Assembly: GCF_015775515.1 (NCBI RefSeq)
Contig: NZ_CP065383.1
Location: forward strand, 434,001-498,000
Length of the DNA stretch: 64,000 bases
Direction: 5' to 3'
Source: Atribacter laminatus
Lineage (GTDB): Bacteria > Atribacterota > Atribacteria > Atribacterales > Atribacteraceae
The notes under the pieces were generated by a model. The model ran no database searches. It had not been told where the DNA came from and worked only from the letters and a program-made list of their open reading frames with translations. Shown here in pieces: positions 17,298 to 62,300 of this stretch. The stretch's first letter is position 1, and each line of letters starts with the position of its first letter. The position numbers were made by a program, and so were the translations under genes.

Positions 17298-18240
17298 AAT
17301 CTTTAAGAACCTCGCTCTAAACTAACAACGGTATCTTATCAATTTTTAAAAAGAAAATACAGTACTGCTCTGATTTGCTCATCAAACCTTTTTTATGATA
17401 TAAATAACTACATACTTTTTTTTGGATAGTGATACTGCCTGGCAATATTATATGAAGTTGGAAAATGCCTGTCTAAAGCTATCATCCCAAGAGCCCAACC
17501 GTTTTTGACTTGAATGGTGGGGCAATCTCATCAGCACACTCCGAAATTCTGTGGAGCGTATTGTGCAGCGTGAGAATCTTATTTTTTTCAGTTCCATAGT
17601 CTATAAAGGATCAGGCCCTCACGGCTTCTTAAAAATGAAGCCTCAGGATGACGCCTTTTTTTATAATTCTTTAGTAGGTGCTTGATTTATCATGCCCGTG
17701 GGTTTTTAGGATTGACATTCATGCTGCGAAGAAGCAGCAGTTTAGAATGAAAATATATAACCAAGAGCCAATATCCCCCTTTTGCAAAGGGGGTAAGGGG
17801 GATTTGAGTTTTTTTTACTGCTCCGTCATTGCGAGGAGTCTAACTGTTCTTTGGTTGGACGACGTGGCAATCTCTTTCATTATTTTTTTAAAAATAATAA
17901 AAGAATGGGATCCCCACGCGGAAAAGCACCGCTCAGAATGACCGATTAAAGAATTCATTTTTAGGTATTTTTAGGATAGACCCTTATGCTTTATAGCAAC
18001 ACCAAATGAGGATGAAAATAGGTATTTCCCTCACCTTAATCCTCTCCCGCCAGGGGAGAGGAAAGAAAAAGGAAAAGGAAAAAGGAGAAGGTGAGGATGA
18101 GGGTGAAAGTCCAAGATTCGACATGCCATGGCATGTCGCTACTTTAATCAGGTGCAATAAAACAAGCGAACAGATGGGTCTCCAAGATAAAATGTATATC
18201 CTTTAATATGAATTTAATGGTAGGTCATATACTCTATAAA
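17298..18240. repeat. Intergenic repeat island 1
   Basis: This 950-base gap holds no credible gene. In order I see a degenerate hairpin unit (17520-17580), a unit with inner stem GGCTTC/GAAGCC (about 17610-17650) and relics of the GGGCATGATAAATCAAGC repeat (17680-17700). A CCCCCTTTTGC/GCAAAGGGGG palindrome follows (17776-17800). Next is a full nested hairpin with outer ATTGC/GCAAT at 17828/17867 and inner GTCTAAC/GTTGGAC at 17838/17854. Then come a reverse unit (17895-17940), a GGATAGACC...GATGAAAATA unit (17970-18025), a CCTCTCCC/GGGAGAGG unit and the 20-bp palindrome at 18119. Confidence 0.75.
18119..18138. repeat. 20-bp perfect palindrome, copy 1
   Basis: CGACATGCCATGGCATGTCG, the same in eight places. 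This copy is in opposite orientation to the others as judged by flanks (ATT before, CTAC after). Confidence 0.95.
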
Positions 18241-18250
18241 AAAGGAGGAG

Positions 18251-19252
18251 ATGATTATAAATAAAATCCTCGTTGCATTCAGTAAGAAGATATTTGAAGA
18301 AAGAGAAAAGAATTTTTATTCCAATAGACCCGATTTACAGGGAAAAACGGTTTCTATGGTTATCGAAGCTTTAGAGCAAAAAGGTTGGGATTGTCATCAG
18401 CTCAACGTTGATGTTCCACTTATCGAACTCGTTCCCTCCCTCTCCAATCAAAATGCGAATTTTGTTTTTAATCTTGCGGTTTGCTCAGCAGAAGCTTATG
18501 ATCAAGCTTTCTTGCCATCTTTATTAGACGCTTTAAACATCCCTTATCTTGGCTCTAATTCTACTATTCACTCCTTATGTCTCGATCGAGCTCTTACCAA
18601 ACTCTCCATGAGGGGCATTGGTATTCCCACCACCTCATCGATTCAATGGTCGCCTGGTGATTCCTTACCTGATGGTCTTGATTATCCTTATATAATAAAA
18701 TCTCGCTTTCGTAATCACTGCCAAAAGGTATCATCAGATTCAATAGTCAATGACCAGGAAAGCCTTTTAAAAAAAGCTGAGGAAATTTTTACCCAAACCA
18801 ACGAGAAAGTGTTGATTGAAAAATTCGTTGAAGGTCGAGAAATGGTGATTGGTCTCTGGGGAAATGGGAATAATCCCGAAGTTCTTCCTATTATGGAATT
18901 AAATCTCTCCCGAGAAAAACCTCTTTTTGATGCCGAAATCGAAAGCAAAAAAGGATACGTTGACGATATATCCTGCCCAGTAAAATTAAGTGATGAACAC
19001 AAAACCATGCTGGAAAGCATGGCTATTAAAATTTTCCGTGAACTTAACCTTAAAGATTTTGCGACTTTCCACCTCATTTTTGATCAAAAAGAAAACCTGC
19101 CTCTCTTTTTTGAAATAAACGCTCTGCCACTGCTCCACTACAAACATAGTGCTTTCCCAGAAATGTGCTCTTACCATGGCATAGAATATCCTGTAATGAT
19201 AAAAAAACTCCTACAAATAGCTCTGGAAAGGAAAAAAAATGAGCGTCATTGA
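18251..19252 (+). CDS. D-Ala-D-Ala ligase-like ATP-grasp enzyme, substrate unknown
   Basis: The 333-residue protein follows the Ddl plan: an N-terminal lobe, then ATP-grasp lysines in YPYIIKSRF, the adenine-binding strand VLIEKFVEGREM and the metal-binding FFEINALPLLHYKHSAFP, which mirrors the Ddl FxEINTLPG...HS(L)FP. The Ddl substrate loop HGxxGEDG is replaced by NLAVCSAEAYDQAF, so it is probably not a cell-wall Ddl. ATP-grasp ligases of this type join a carboxylate to an amine. Its stop overlaps the next gene by 14 bases, placing it in one operon with an opine-dehydrogenase-like and a B12 enzyme. The GGAGG site is only two bases from the ATG, unusually close. Confidence 0.75.
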   Translation: MIINKILVAFSKKIFEEREKNFYSNRPDLQGKTVSMVIEALEQKGWDCHQLNVDVPLIELVPSLSNQNANFVFNLAVCSAEAYDQAFLPSLLDALNIPYLGSNSTIHSLCLDRALTKLSMRGIGIPTTSSIQWSPGDSLPDGLDYPYIIKSRFRNHCQKVSSDSIVNDQESLLKKAEEIFTQTNEKVLIEKFVEGREMVIGLWGNGNNPEVLPIMELNLSREKPLFDAEIESKKGYVDDISCPVKLSDEHKTMLESMAIKIFRELNLKDFATFHLIFDQKENLPLFFEINALPLLHYKHSAFPEMCSYHGIEYPVMIKKLLQIALERKKNERH

Positions 19253-20348
19253 TGCAACTCACTTTGCAGTGTTGGGAGCCGGTCATGGTGGGCAAGCTTT
19301 GGCTGGATATCTTTCTTTAAAAGGTTTTAAGGTCAACTTATACAATCGATCTTCTGACCGATTAAATTCCTTAAGGCTGATGGGTGGTGTTCAGGTCGAA
19401 GGAGAAATACAGGGATTTGCTCCATTAAATGTTGTTACCTCTAACATCGAAGAAGCAATCAAAGACGCTGAAATAATTATGGTGGTTGTTCCGGCAACTG
19501 GTCAGCGCTTCATGGCAGAAAATCTCGTTCCCTTTCTCAAAGATGGTCAAATCATTGTTTTAAACCCCGGCCGAACTGGTGGTGCTTTGGAGTTCAGGCA
19601 AATATTTAAAGAGCGAAATGTAACCGTAGAGGTGATCATCTCCGAAGCTCAAACCTTTCTTTTTGCCAGTCGGATCAGCGGTCCAGCCCAAGTAAAAATC
19701 TTCCGAATTAAAAATAGTATTCCTGTGGCAGCTATTCCAGCTTATAAAACTGTTGAGGTAGTAACGGCGCTTCGCAAAGCGCTTCCCCAGTTTGTTCCTG
19801 AGGATAACGTCCTCAAAACCAGTTTTAATAATATTGGAGCGATTTTCCACCCCACTTTAACCATTCTCAACGCTGCTCGCATTGAGAACACCCATGGTGA
19901 ATTTGATTATTATATCGATGGGATCACCCCATCAGTTGCTTTAATTCTTGAAGCAGTTGACAGTGAACGAGTTAAGGTAGCCGAAGCTTTAGGAATCCGA
20001 GCTATCACCGCACGAGAATGGCTCTATTCCGCTTATGATGCCTATGGGAGAAATCTCTACGAGGCAATTCAAAACAATCCTGGTTACCGTGGAATCCGAG
20101 CTCCCTACACCATTTTTACTCGTTATATTACCGAGGATGTCCCAATGAGCCTGGTTCCCATTTCATCTTTTGGGAAAATGTTACAAATCCCAACTCCAAC
20201 CATAGATTGCATGATCCAGTTGGCTAACATTCTTCACAATAAGGATTACTTTGTAGAAGGAAGGACAGTAGAAAAGCTGGGATTAGCAGGGCTTAGCGTA
20301 AAAGAAATTCGAGAAATGGTCGTGGTAGAAGCGAACTCAAGTTCATAA
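19239..20348 (+). CDS. NAD(P)-dependent octopine/nopaline (opine) dehydrogenase family protein
   Basis: The 369-residue enzyme has an N-terminal Rossmann motif (GAGHGGQALAGYLSLKG, residues 13-29). Its C-terminal opine-dehydrogenase domain has FNNIGAIFHPTLTILNAARIE, with the catalytic-type His, and YYIDGITPSVALILEAVDSER. Opine dehydrogenases reductively join the amino group of an amino acid to a 2-oxo acid, or run in reverse. It starts inside the ATP-grasp gene and is followed 14 bases later by the B12-type enzyme. The actual substrates are unknown. Confidence 0.8.
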   Translation: MSVIDATHFAVLGAGHGGQALAGYLSLKGFKVNLYNRSSDRLNSLRLMGGVQVEGEIQGFAPLNVVTSNIEEAIKDAEIIMVVVPATGQRFMAENLVPFLKDGQIIVLNPGRTGGALEFRQIFKERNVTVEVIISEAQTFLFASRISGPAQVKIFRIKNSIPVAAIPAYKTVEVVTALRKALPQFVPEDNVLKTSFNNIGAIFHPTLTILNAARIENTHGEFDYYIDGITPSVALILEAVDSERVKVAEALGIRAITAREWLYSAYDAYGRNLYEAIQNNPGYRGIRAPYTIFTRYITEDVPMSLVPISSFGKMLQIPTPTIDCMIQLANILHNKDYFVEGRTVEKLGLAGLSVKEIREMVVVEANSSS

Positions 20349-20362
20349 TTGGAGGTTTTGAC

Positions 20363-22003
20363 ATGGTTGAGAAAAAAATCATAATTGGTGCAACCCTGGG
20401 AAATTGTGTTCATGTCGCCGGAATTTATCGGTTTCTCAGTTTGGCCGAAGAATACCAATACACATCCTATTTTTTGGGACCAGCAATTCCAGTCAACCAG
20501 TTAATTCAATGTATTAAAGAAAAAAAGCCCCAACGTGTTATCGTTGGTTATCGTTTAAGTGAAGATTCAGCTCAAATTCTCTTCACCGAATTACGCCGTC
20601 AATTAGAAGAAAATCATCTTCTTGACCAGAGTACTTATATTCTTAGCTGTACACCGGCTTTACAACCAATCGCTCAGAGTGTCGGTGTTTTTCAATATAT
20701 TTTCAGCGGAAAAGAGAGTTTTGATGAAATTCTTGAAAGCATTCACCAAGTTACCCAAGATATCCCTCCCGATAAAAAATATGCCTCTACTCTTCCTGAA
20801 AGAATTCTTGCCAAAAAACCTTTCCCTCTCCTTCGACATCATTTTGGAAGACCAAGTCTTGAAGAAACTATCAAAGGCATTGTTCAAATCAGCCAATCAA
20901 AAACCATCGATGTCATTTCTTTGGGACCTGATCAAAATGCTCAAGAGTTCTTTTTTGAACCTGAAAAGATGAAAGTGGATGAAAGTGGAGCTGGTGGAGT
21001 CCCGGTTAGAAGTCGTGAGGACCTGGAAAGAATCTATACTGCTTCTCGGGATGGCAACTACCCTCTGCTGCGTTGCTATAGTGGGACCAACCATCTGGAA
21101 GACTGGGCCCAATTGTTATTTGAGGCGATTCATATCGCTTGGGGTGCAGTCCCTTTAACCTGGTACAGCCGACTGGATGGCCGATCTCAACGTTCAATAA
21201 AAGCTGCTATTACTGAAAATCAAAAAGCCATGCAAAGATATGCAGCCCTTGGCGTTCCTCTGGAAGTCAACGAATCTCATCAATGGAGCCTGCGAGATGC
21301 GCCTGATAGCGTCGCCTGTGCTTCTTTTTACTTAGCAGCTTATAATGCCAAAAAAGCCGGTGCAAAACATTACGTTGCTCAATATATGCTCAATAACCCC
21401 AATGGAATCTCTCCACGAGCTGATTTAGCAAAAATGCTTGCCAAAAAAGAATTAATTGCACCCCTTCGAGATAAAGATTTTATCATTTATACCCAAACCC
21501 GGGGTGGGTTGGCTCATTTTTCCACCAATATGAACATTGCAAAAGGACAATTAGGAGCATCTACGGCATTAGGTTTGGCGCTCAAACCGGACATTATTCA
21601 TGTAGTTGGTTACAGCGAAGCCGATCATCTTATCTATCCCAATGAGCTTATTGAAAGTGCCGAGCTTGTTCAGGGTGTCATCAAGGACTTGCTTTTTGAT
21701 TTTCCCGATTGGGAAAAGGATCAAGTGATTCAAACAGAAAAAGAACGTTTGGTTTATGAAGCGAGAATCCTTCTTGAGGCTATAAAAAATATTCACCAAC
21801 ATGGAGATGGAGATGATCCCTGGGCTTCTCCTGCTACTCTTGCCCGTGCCATCCAAAAAGGTATTTTGGATGCACCCCATCTTTTAGGAAATCCTGAAGC
21901 TTACGGCCAAGTCCGGACTCGAATTATTAAAGGTGTTTTAAGAGTAGTCGATAAAAATGGGGAAATTATCGAAGAAAAAGATCGCTTAAAAAACTTTCTT
22001 TAG
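20363..22003 (+). CDS. B12-binding domain fused to a glutamate-mutase-E-like barrel
   Basis: The 546-residue protein starts like a cobalamin-binding domain (KIIIGATLGNCVHVAG). His17 sits at the axial-ligand position and Gly20 three residues on, but the usual Asp of DxHxxG is Cys15. The next strands (QRVIVGYRLSED) continue the Rossmann-like fold to about residue 140. From about residue 185 the protein resembles the TIM-barrel catalytic subunit of glutamate mutase: RCYSGTNHLEDWAQLLFEA, the WGAVPLTWYS glycine/serine strand and RSIKAAITENQKAMQRYAALG. In glutamate mutase these are two separate subunits. A radical carbon-skeleton or amino mutase is the best guess; a catalytically altered member is possible. 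Start ATG after TTGGAGG. Confidence 0.7.
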   Translation: MVEKKIIIGATLGNCVHVAGIYRFLSLAEEYQYTSYFLGPAIPVNQLIQCIKEKKPQRVIVGYRLSEDSAQILFTELRRQLEENHLLDQSTYILSCTPALQPIAQSVGVFQYIFSGKESFDEILESIHQVTQDIPPDKKYASTLPERILAKKPFPLLRHHFGRPSLEETIKGIVQISQSKTIDVISLGPDQNAQEFFFEPEKMKVDESGAGGVPVRSREDLERIYTASRDGNYPLLRCYSGTNHLEDWAQLLFEAIHIAWGAVPLTWYSRLDGRSQRSIKAAITENQKAMQRYAALGVPLEVNESHQWSLRDAPDSVACASFYLAAYNAKKAGAKHYVAQYMLNNPNGISPRADLAKMLAKKELIAPLRDKDFIIYTQTRGGLAHFSTNMNIAKGQLGASTALGLALKPDIIHVVGYSEADHLIYPNELIESAELVQGVIKDLLFDFPDWEKDQVIQTEKERLVYEARILLEAIKNIHQHGDGDDPWASPATLARAIQKGILDAPHLLGNPEAYGQVRTRIIKGVLRVVDKNGEIIEEKDRLKNFL

Positions 22004-22023
22004 TTAATGCATTATAAAGGAAA

Positions 22024-22055
22024 AGAGGGAAGCCAGTTTTCGTTGGCTTCCCTCT
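22024..22055 (-). terminator. Convergent hairpin terminator
   Basis: AGAGGGAAGCCA pairs with TGGCTTCCCTCT across eight bases. On the minus strand it is followed by TTTTCCTTT, suiting the S1-domain gene that ends at 22082. On the plus strand the T-run is poor. Confidence 0.65.
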
Positions 22056-22081
22056 CATGAACCAATACTATACATTAAAAA

Positions 22082-22447
22082 TCAGTGGAATTTACGTTTA
22101 TTTTCCTGGTGTTTTTTGAGATCAGTAAGCCTGTCCTGGCTTTGTTTAAGAAATTTGTTCAACTTTTGCTCAAACATAGCTTTACTTTTCTCTAATTTCT
22201 CTAAATACTCTTCATCCTCATTCAGTCGTTTTATCGACAGGTCAATTTTACCATCATCAGAAATGTGAATAACCTTGGCTTTTACTTTATCATCCACCTT
22301 AAGAAAATCATTCACATCCTTAACAAATTGGTTTGAAATCTCCGAAATATGGATGAGTCCTTTTTTCCCATCCTCTAATTCAATAAACGCTCCGAATTTA
22401 GTGATGCCAACAACCGAACCTTCAACAATATCATTCACCTCAATCAT
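22082..22447 (-). CDS. yabR: S1 RNA-binding domain protein (YabR/CvfD type)
   Basis: This is a single S1 domain (VNDIVEGSVVGITKFGAFIELEDGKKGLIHISE through DGKIDLSIKRL) with a charged, probably helical tail of about 50 residues. YabR-like proteins bind RNA and associate with ribosomes. It sits downstream of divIC exactly as yabR does in Bacillus, with a repeat island inserted between. An ATG ten codons upstream (22477) is possible, but the family starts at MIEV (22447). AAAGGAGG is 15 bases before it, longer than usual, so the start is uncertain. Confidence 0.8.
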   Translation of the reverse strand: MIEVNDIVEGSVVGITKFGAFIELEDGKKGLIHISEISNQFVKDVNDFLKVDDKVKAKVIHISDDGKIDLSIKRLNEDEEYLEKLEKSKAMFEQKLNKFLKQSQDRLTDLKKHQENKRKFH

Positions 22448-22477
22448 GGGGTGACTCGTTATCCTCCTTTGTATCAT

Positions 22478-61669: not shown

Positions 61670-62300
61670 ATCTATTTTCTTTCTTTCCTCTCCCCTGGTG
61701 GGAGAGGATTAAGGTGAGGGGGTCCTTGTACTTTCCTCAATTTTTTTATCTCAAAGCACCAAGCTTGGATCTTCATCTTAAGTTTTCACCCTCATCCTGA
61801 CCTTCTCCCATTTTCTTTTCTTTCCTCTCCCCTGGTGGGAGAGGATTAAGGTGAGGGGGTCCTTGTACTTTCCTCAATCTTTATCTCAAAGCACCAAGCT
61901 TGAATCTTCATCTTAAGTTATCACCCTCATCCTGACCTTCTCCCATCAAGGGAGAAGGAATCTAAATCCGTCATTGCGAGGAACGAAGTGACGTAGCAAT
62001 CTCATTTATTAAAATCAGTGAGCCGTGAAAAGTGAACCGTGAACCGGATGCAAAATAGAGCAATGATAAAAAAGCATTGTGAAATTTTTTGAAACTCTGA
62101 GGATCTCACCCACCTGTTCCGTCATCCTGAGGATTCGCTTTTCGAATCCGTGAGGATCTCATCCTTTAATTTTTTCTTTTTTTATTACTCTTCTTTTTCT
62201 CCCACTCGCCCCCTCGCGCCCTCTCCCCCTCTGCATTTCTTGCATTCTTTTAATGTAGCGACATGCCATGGCATGTCGAATCATGGTTTTCACCCATACC
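61670..62300. repeat. Intergenic repeat island 10
   Basis: Two tandem copies of a 143-base block (61683 and 61826). Each opens with CCTCTCCCC/GGGAGAGG, followed by GGATTAAGGTGAGGGGG, a CAAAGCACCAAGCTTG box and CACCCTCATCCTGACC. Then come CCTTCTCCC/GGGAGAAGG (61937), an ATTGC/GCAAT hairpin (61973/61996), a hairpin with outer ATCCT/AGGAT (62124/62153) and inner GGATTCG/CGAATCC (62131/62143), and the 20-bp palindrome (62259). No gene. Confidence 0.8.
62259..62278. repeat. 20-bp perfect palindrome, copy 8
   Basis: Identical to the other copies. It is preceded by TGTAG and followed by AATCAT. Confidence 0.95.

Follow-up and report, generated by a model that had tools for sequence, protein, structure and literature searches.

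A predicted B12-dependent mutase and an opine-type dehydrogenase form a conserved gene pair in Atribacter laminatus and other bacterial phyla: candidate enzymes of an undescribed opine-amide pathway

Introduction

Why are an ATP-grasp ligase, an opine dehydrogenase and a cobalamin-type mutase encoded side by side? This question is raised by three consecutive plus-strand genes of Atribacter laminatus (RefSeq assembly GCF_015775515.1, contig NZ_CP065383.1; genome of 3.10 Mb in one contig), which we analyzed within a stretch of 64,000 nucleotides (positions 434,001 to 498,000 of the forward strand; hereafter the window, to whose first letter all coordinates of this locus refer). Gene A (18251–19252, 333 amino acids) encodes a Ddl-like ATP-grasp ligase according to profile and fold matches, gene B (19239–20348, 369 amino acids) a member of the opine dehydrogenase family of the N-(1-D-carboxyethyl)-L-norvaline dehydrogenase (CENDH) type according to profile and PDB matches, and gene C (20363–22003, 546 amino acids) a single-chain B12-type mutase that lies outside curated families, as judged by profile, fold, and alignment. 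An earlier interpretation made from the letters of the window alone (the sequence-only reading) had placed these genes exactly, with an overlap of 14 bases between A and B (19239–19252) and a gap of 14 bases between B and C. It had proposed an opine-like or pseudopeptide pathway or a fermentation route, and had noted that no pathway with this trio was described. We propose that the genes probably belong to an undescribed B12-dependent pathway that makes an opine-type amide and, in one branch of the family, degrades it.

Results and discussion

Genes B and C form the conserved unit

B adjoined C in 111 of 115 loci (numbered with the prefix L where they are named below), with a median gap of 4 bases and a maximum of 190, and did so in 48 of the 52 divergence groups, defined at 70% C identity. 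One of the four loci without an adjoining B (L012) is a short contig that ends close to C. The pair spans at least five phyla (Atribacterota, Thermotogota, Bacillota, Bacteroidota, and Chlorobiota), and the distances among B and among C sequences are correlated (r 0.78; none of 2000 permutations was as high). Full-length C was present in 65 of 103 Thermotogota, in one of which the gene is split, in 87 of 399 sampled Bacillota (a few of these matches being fragments), in 5 of 396 Bacteroidota, and, within the window's own order, in 21 of 25 genomes, one copy being truncated where its contig stops. The arrangement is thus conserved across phyla, and the trio too reaches far beyond one genus. The flanks of the pair are reshuffled, and recurrent neighbors besides A, B, C, MutL, and AsnB belong to generic families, e.g., ABC ATPases. 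The trio had been regarded as one unit, which holds for B and C, whereas the ligase is replaceable and missing from many loci; what cannot be divided is the pair B+C.

Within the genus, purifying selection on each of the three genes is strong, with ratios of nonsynonymous to synonymous substitution rates of about 0.03–0.13 (0.38 for a single very close pair of A). Synonymous divergence from L004 is uneven by gene (0.15 for B, 0.35 for C, and 0.77 for A), which suggests recombination within the operon.

Gene B encodes a CENDH-type member of the opine dehydrogenase family

Profile searches assigned B to the octopine/nopaline dehydrogenase family (Octopine_DH, PF02317, 5.9e-50), as the sequence-only reading had done, and the protein aligned end to end with CENDH (PDB 1bg6, 1.8e-89). 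It combines a Rossmann domain, with the NAD motif GxG at G13 and G15, and an all-alpha Octopine_DH domain with the His and Asp expected of opine dehydrogenases. H204, R295, and D300, which we take to be equivalent to the catalytic His, Arg, and Asp of CENDH and opine dehydrogenases, are conserved in at least 95% of 101 sequences. An opine-type redox reaction is therefore the likely function predicted for B, which differs from CENDH in its linkage to a B12 mutase.

Gene C combines GlmS-like and GlmE-like parts

Structure and alignment predict a cobalamin-binding Rossmann domain with the motif CVHVAG in residues 1–130 of C (20363–20752). It is followed by a GlmE-like barrel in residues 155–480 (20825–21802), delimited by structure, profile, and conservation, and by a tail in residues 487–546 (21821–22000) that aligns with the C-terminus of GlmE (GxxDxP motif). 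The AlphaFold model of C (predicted local distance difference test score (pLDDT) 89.5, predicted template modelling score 0.77) was closest in the PDB to GlmE (Foldseek, 6h9e_B 8.8e-17, then 1cb7_B 2.6e-16), with lysine 5,6- and ornithine 4,5-aminomutase next (about 1e-10) and methylmalonyl-CoA mutase-type enzymes lower, and its first 130 residues resembled corrinoid domains and GlmS. A profile-profile comparison of 99 C proteins with a GlmE alignment (29 genomic sequences and the solved one) was significant across the entire barrel (E 9e-7, probability 91%), whereas hhalign of C against one lone GlmE sequence gave no significance; the hhalign placement of GlmE E171, Y177, and Y181 was unreliable and was not used.

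The window's C itself reached no Pfam cut-off (Met_asp_mut_E, PF06368, E 0.006, 15.5 bits against a cut-off of 26.6) and had no NCBIfam match at E 0.01. In a set of 15 family members, composed of the window's C and 14 relatives, 14 matched B12-binding (best 1.6e-11) and seven Met_asp_mut_E (best 3.3e-8), and some relatives had weak NCBIfam matches to MutS, MutE, OraE, and corrinoid proteins. None of the Pfam, NCBIfam, or other profile searches placed C in a known non-B12 family. On these models and profiles, C is a GlmS-like and a GlmE-like part joined in one chain, which bears out the architecture first proposed from sequence. We consider it very probable that C is an adenosylcobalamin (AdoCbl) radical mutase, and it looks like the representative of a new family of such mutases.

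Residue conservation was counted over 111 sequences. The predicted axial ligand His17 and Gly20 of the DxHxxG-type motif are invariant (each 110/110 of the sequences with residues there), and so is Glu419 (111/111), which aligns with GlmE Glu330; this residue and OraE Glu338 are suggested to contact the ribose of the 5'-deoxyadenosyl group (PMC3958899). Further invariant barrel residues are R158, H160, Q191, Q194, R237, Y239, T242, D272, R274, E301, H306, R311, R380, and H413, and the invariant polar residues of the barrel lie at strand ends. The positions of GlmE R66, R100, R149, and K326, presumably the arginine claw and lysine that hold the substrate, align with H160, Q194, and Y239 (all invariant) and V415 (near-invariant) of C. 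Our core claim, drawn from these alignments, is that C appears to retain the elements for radical generation and to have changed substrate recognition.

C is thus like GlmES of Clostridium cochlearium along the length of the barrel, in the axial-His B12 Rossmann domain, in the Glu330 equivalent, and, in one branch, in its MutL partner. It differs in being one chain instead of two, in the replaced claw and lysine, in scores below the family cut-offs, and in standing nearly always beside an opine-type dehydrogenase. With D-ornithine 4,5- and lysine 5,6-aminomutases (OraE, KamDE) C shares the fold class and a B12 domain of the base-off/His-on type, but its domain order is the reverse of that in OraE. 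The pyridoxal phosphate (PLP) lysine of OraE (Lys629, 11 residues past His618) corresponds to Ala28, found in 97 of 111 C sequences and otherwise Leu, Met, Ser, or Ile; a PLP aldimine of the OraE kind is thus not expected, and we rejected a PLP aminomutase identity.

MutL is a partner of B12 mutases. It is fused to C in eight loci (PF13941, 8e-87 and similar) of a divergent branch, found in other Atribacterota families and two Bacillota; the complete genes among them encode proteins of about 1,220 residues. A free-standing MutL stands beside B and C in four Bacillota loci (5e-136 and 1e-164 for the two scored with Pfam). This association argues for a mutase rather than a methyltransferase. The window's genome encodes an ATP:corrinoid adenosyltransferase (PF02572, 1.2e-58), so that AdoCbl can be made.

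A second C subfamily of 613–634 amino acids occurs in L163, L164, L168, and L265; the first three have the canonical motif DxHTLG/DxHSLG, and the cluster around L168 resembles one for capsular polysaccharide.

The third slot is occupied by replaceable ligases

The fold of A is plainly that of Ddl, as judged from the AlphaFold model (pLDDT 88.6), whose top fold match is DdlA (2.3e-22), and in line with its profile match (Dala_Dala_lig_C, 4.2e-22). Besides the fold, A shares with Ddl several nucleotide-site residues and a Ser281 equivalent, and it keeps the ATP-grasp Lys, Glu, and Asn residues K117, K150, E190, E197, and N290. The substrate loop HGxxGEDG of Ddl is indeed missing, with FNLAVCSAEAYDQAF in its place and only the following Gln (Q85) retained; all relatives of A likewise lack it and have FNL(A/S)...Q instead. 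A was accordingly rejected as a true Ddl, and in view of the missing PylC match also as a PylC.

Ddl-like A genes were present in 51 loci (19 divergence groups), mostly in the order A-B-C or B-C-A. Twelve loci (nine divergence groups) contained an AsnB-like gene, N, in several cases directly after C, and no locus contained both (exclusion P 5e-4, a value that ignores kinship). The AsnB-like proteins of L165, L166, L160, L179, and L180 have Ala or Ser at the glutaminase Cys, which would be expected of an enzyme whose amine is something other than glutamine-derived ammonia. In L010 and L168, the pair adjoins other ATP-grasp genes. These gene contents point to a third slot for a swappable amide-forming ligase, filled by at least two interchangeable enzymes. 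In L160 (Thermotogota), there are two B-C copies separated by about 10 kb, and both have an AsnB-like gene in divergent orientation.

Proposed pathway and alternatives

The three enzyme classes are well supported, and an opine-like or pseudopeptide pathway is the likeliest of the earlier proposals; the substrates and the direction given below are inferred. B and C would be successive enzymes of one pathway. C would bind cobalamin base-off on its N-terminal Rossmann domain, with His17 as lower ligand. The Co–C bond would break above the GlmE-like barrel, with the ribose of the 5'-deoxyadenosyl radical held by Glu419, and the radical would take hydrogen from an amino-acid-type substrate, leading to a carbon-skeleton rearrangement. 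B, like CENDH, would use NAD(P)H to join an amino acid to a 2-oxo acid through a secondary amine, or in reverse split this link oxidatively; the AdoCbl radical reaction itself and the order of B and C are likewise part of what we infer. Where the third gene exists, an ATP-dependent ligase (A or AsnB-like) would convert a carboxylate of the product to an amide or peptide bond, and the net product would be an opine-type, skeleton-rearranged amino-acid conjugate.

A possible, although in our view doubtful, alternative has the opine as the substrate of C: B would first join an amino acid to a 2-oxo acid such as pyruvate, C would rearrange the resulting N-substituted amino acid through migration of an N-substituted glycyl-type radical, in the manner of glutamate mutase, and capping by the ligase would follow, the catabolic branch running in reverse through an amidase, C, and B. 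Such a sequence fits the B-C-A order of most ligase-bearing Thermotogota loci and the combination of B, C, peptidase C26, and a peptide/opine-type ABC transporter in the MutL-fused branch. The invariant basic residues R158, R237, R274, R311, R380, and K357, together with R216 (107/111), compared to three Arg and one Lys in GlmE, would also suit a larger polycarboxylate. However, reactions need not follow the order of the genes, which is A-B-C in Atribacterota, and the counted basic residues may be structural. Moreover, we know of no AdoCbl mutase that acts on a secondary amine.

The proposed pathway could build or dismantle the opine. Core-branch loci, the window included, have no dedicated transporter, and some of them (L168, L169, L010, L013) are surrounded by nucleotide-sugar, polysaccharide, or sulfation genes. 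The MutL-fused loci L263 and L264 are flanked by Opp/Dpp ABC transporters, a peptidase C26 (4.6e-61), and GntR regulators, and L057 and L062 by TAXI-TRAP transporters and a D-glutamate cyclase family gene (1.9e-69), with transporter and regulator names partly assigned by eye; this suggests that the MutL-fused branch is catabolic. In the window's lineage, a biosynthetic direction appears the better prediction. These fused-branch neighbors could also be taken to mean that the unit is catabolic everywhere, i.e., that C rearranges opine-like compounds imported from the environment and B cleaves them to an amino acid and a 2-oxo acid, as in an amino-acid fermentation. We regard this as unlikely, since a core branch without dedicated transporter and often with an ATP-consuming ligase fits synthesis, and several Bacteroidota, Chlorobiota, and Thermotogota loci have polysaccharide or nucleotide-sugar genes around them. 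The fermentation route envisaged by the sequence-only reading found no support in the window's lineage, and a catabolic version is suggested solely for the MutL-fused branch.

Near the MutL-fused branch, L061 (9233–13873) contains AtuA-like, MmgE/PrpD-like, and MttB-like genes assigned by eye, the first without an NCBIfam match at 1e-10. An ornithine racemase-like (Orr-like) gene is convergent with C in L256 (8927–9988) and an ornithine aminotransferase follows C in L169 (8882–10081); these genes hint faintly at a substrate of the ornithine type, but such cases are too rare to build on.

A role of C as corrinoid methyltransferase or cobalamin sensor would agree with the best sequence matches of its B12 domain, which are corrinoid proteins of methyltransferase systems (4jgi 2e-8, MttC 2e-7), and with the NCBIfam model MtgC (3.4e-7). 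It is nevertheless improbable: the top structural matches of the barrel are mutases and not methyltransferase barrels, and MutL fusion or adjacency and the invariant Glu419 argue against it. An ordinary glutamate mutase fused in one chain for 3-methylaspartate metabolism, for which the top fold match to GlmE, the chain order GlmS-GlmE, and the MutL partner of the related branch would speak, is the least probable identity of C and was rejected on the four replaced active-site residues, along with a score below the MutE cut-off and no methylaspartate ammonia-lyase recognized among recurring neighbors (no profile search was made for it).

Several observations weigh against an AdoCbl-dependent amide pathway at this locus. 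No cobalamin riboswitch was found at the operon, and the window's genome has no MutL above cut-off. Sequences of the window's lineage have a weakened cobalamin motif. Of the 106 sequences with a residue at the Asp of DxHxxG, 24 keep Asp and 82, this lineage included, have Cys; at the later GG motif, about 20 sequences, those of Atribacterota among them, read SC. Atribacterota A proteins have lost the ATP-binding EGSxxG loop and the two catalytic/metal residues equivalent to DdlB R255 and D257 (T272 and H274 in A). Thermotogota relatives keep the loop and Asp257, and the activity of the window's A should thus not be taken for granted, although Atribacterota A remains under selection despite these losses. 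Finally, the mutual exclusion of A and N is confounded by phylogeny, and numerous B-C loci encode neither these nor another ligase.

The plan of the proposed amide pathway resembles that of PylB-PylC-PylD in pyrrolysine synthesis, with skeleton rearrangement, ATP-grasp ligation, and an NAD-dependent dehydrogenase, but this is an analogy only. The families differ: PylB is a radical S-adenosylmethionine enzyme and C is of the B12/GlmE type, A is nearest to Ddl and B to CENDH, and neither PylC nor PylD was named among the PDB matches of A or B. Consistent with the earlier remark that the trio is undescribed, we found no paper in the open-access collection searched that pairs glutamate mutase or an ATP-grasp enzyme with octopine dehydrogenase, or an opine dehydrogenase with a cobalamin mutase.

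Surroundings of the locus

A GGAGG-type ribosome-binding site precedes C (20351–20355, plus strand), and a further GGAGG lies directly 5' of A, both read directly in the sequence. Repeat counts in the window confirmed the repeat island noted upstream of the trio (17777–18135), which consists of two dispersed families, CCCTCACCTTAATCCTCTCCC and CATGCCATGGCATG, with eight copies each (less than 0.1 expected). The palindrome CATGCCATGGCATG occurs at 18122, 46028, 49064, 51818, 54887, 57218, 57931, and 62262 (0.09 copies expected), and CCCTCACCTTAATCCTCTCCC is often close to it; the dispersed family is dense at 46–62 kb of the window and also makes up a 135-bp tandem repeat with two copies that are 95% alike (61674–61946). 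A comparison with plasmids gave no match. The terminator reported to bound the trio downstream is present as a hairpin of 13 pairs directly after C (22023–22056), but its T-run is on the minus strand. It therefore resembles a terminator that serves the convergent gene for an S1-domain protein (22082–22477), and would serve the trio at most in addition.

Implications

Few AdoCbl mutase reactions are known, and the C family, which Pfam and NCBIfam leave unnamed, would add a new B12-dependent reaction to them. It would also represent a demand for B12 that surveys of known enzymes could miss. Tentatively, C may represent a new kind of AdoCbl mutase, outside the catalogued B12 enzymes, that acts on opines or on the way to them; together with its own opine dehydrogenase and ligases that can be exchanged, it would provide anaerobes of five or more phyla with a novel class of skeleton-rearranged opine amides, which the MutL-fused branch would consume. 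The tight pairing of B and C makes the question of their substrate directly testable, and the answer could reveal a metabolite that is widespread in anaerobes and in the deep subsurface.

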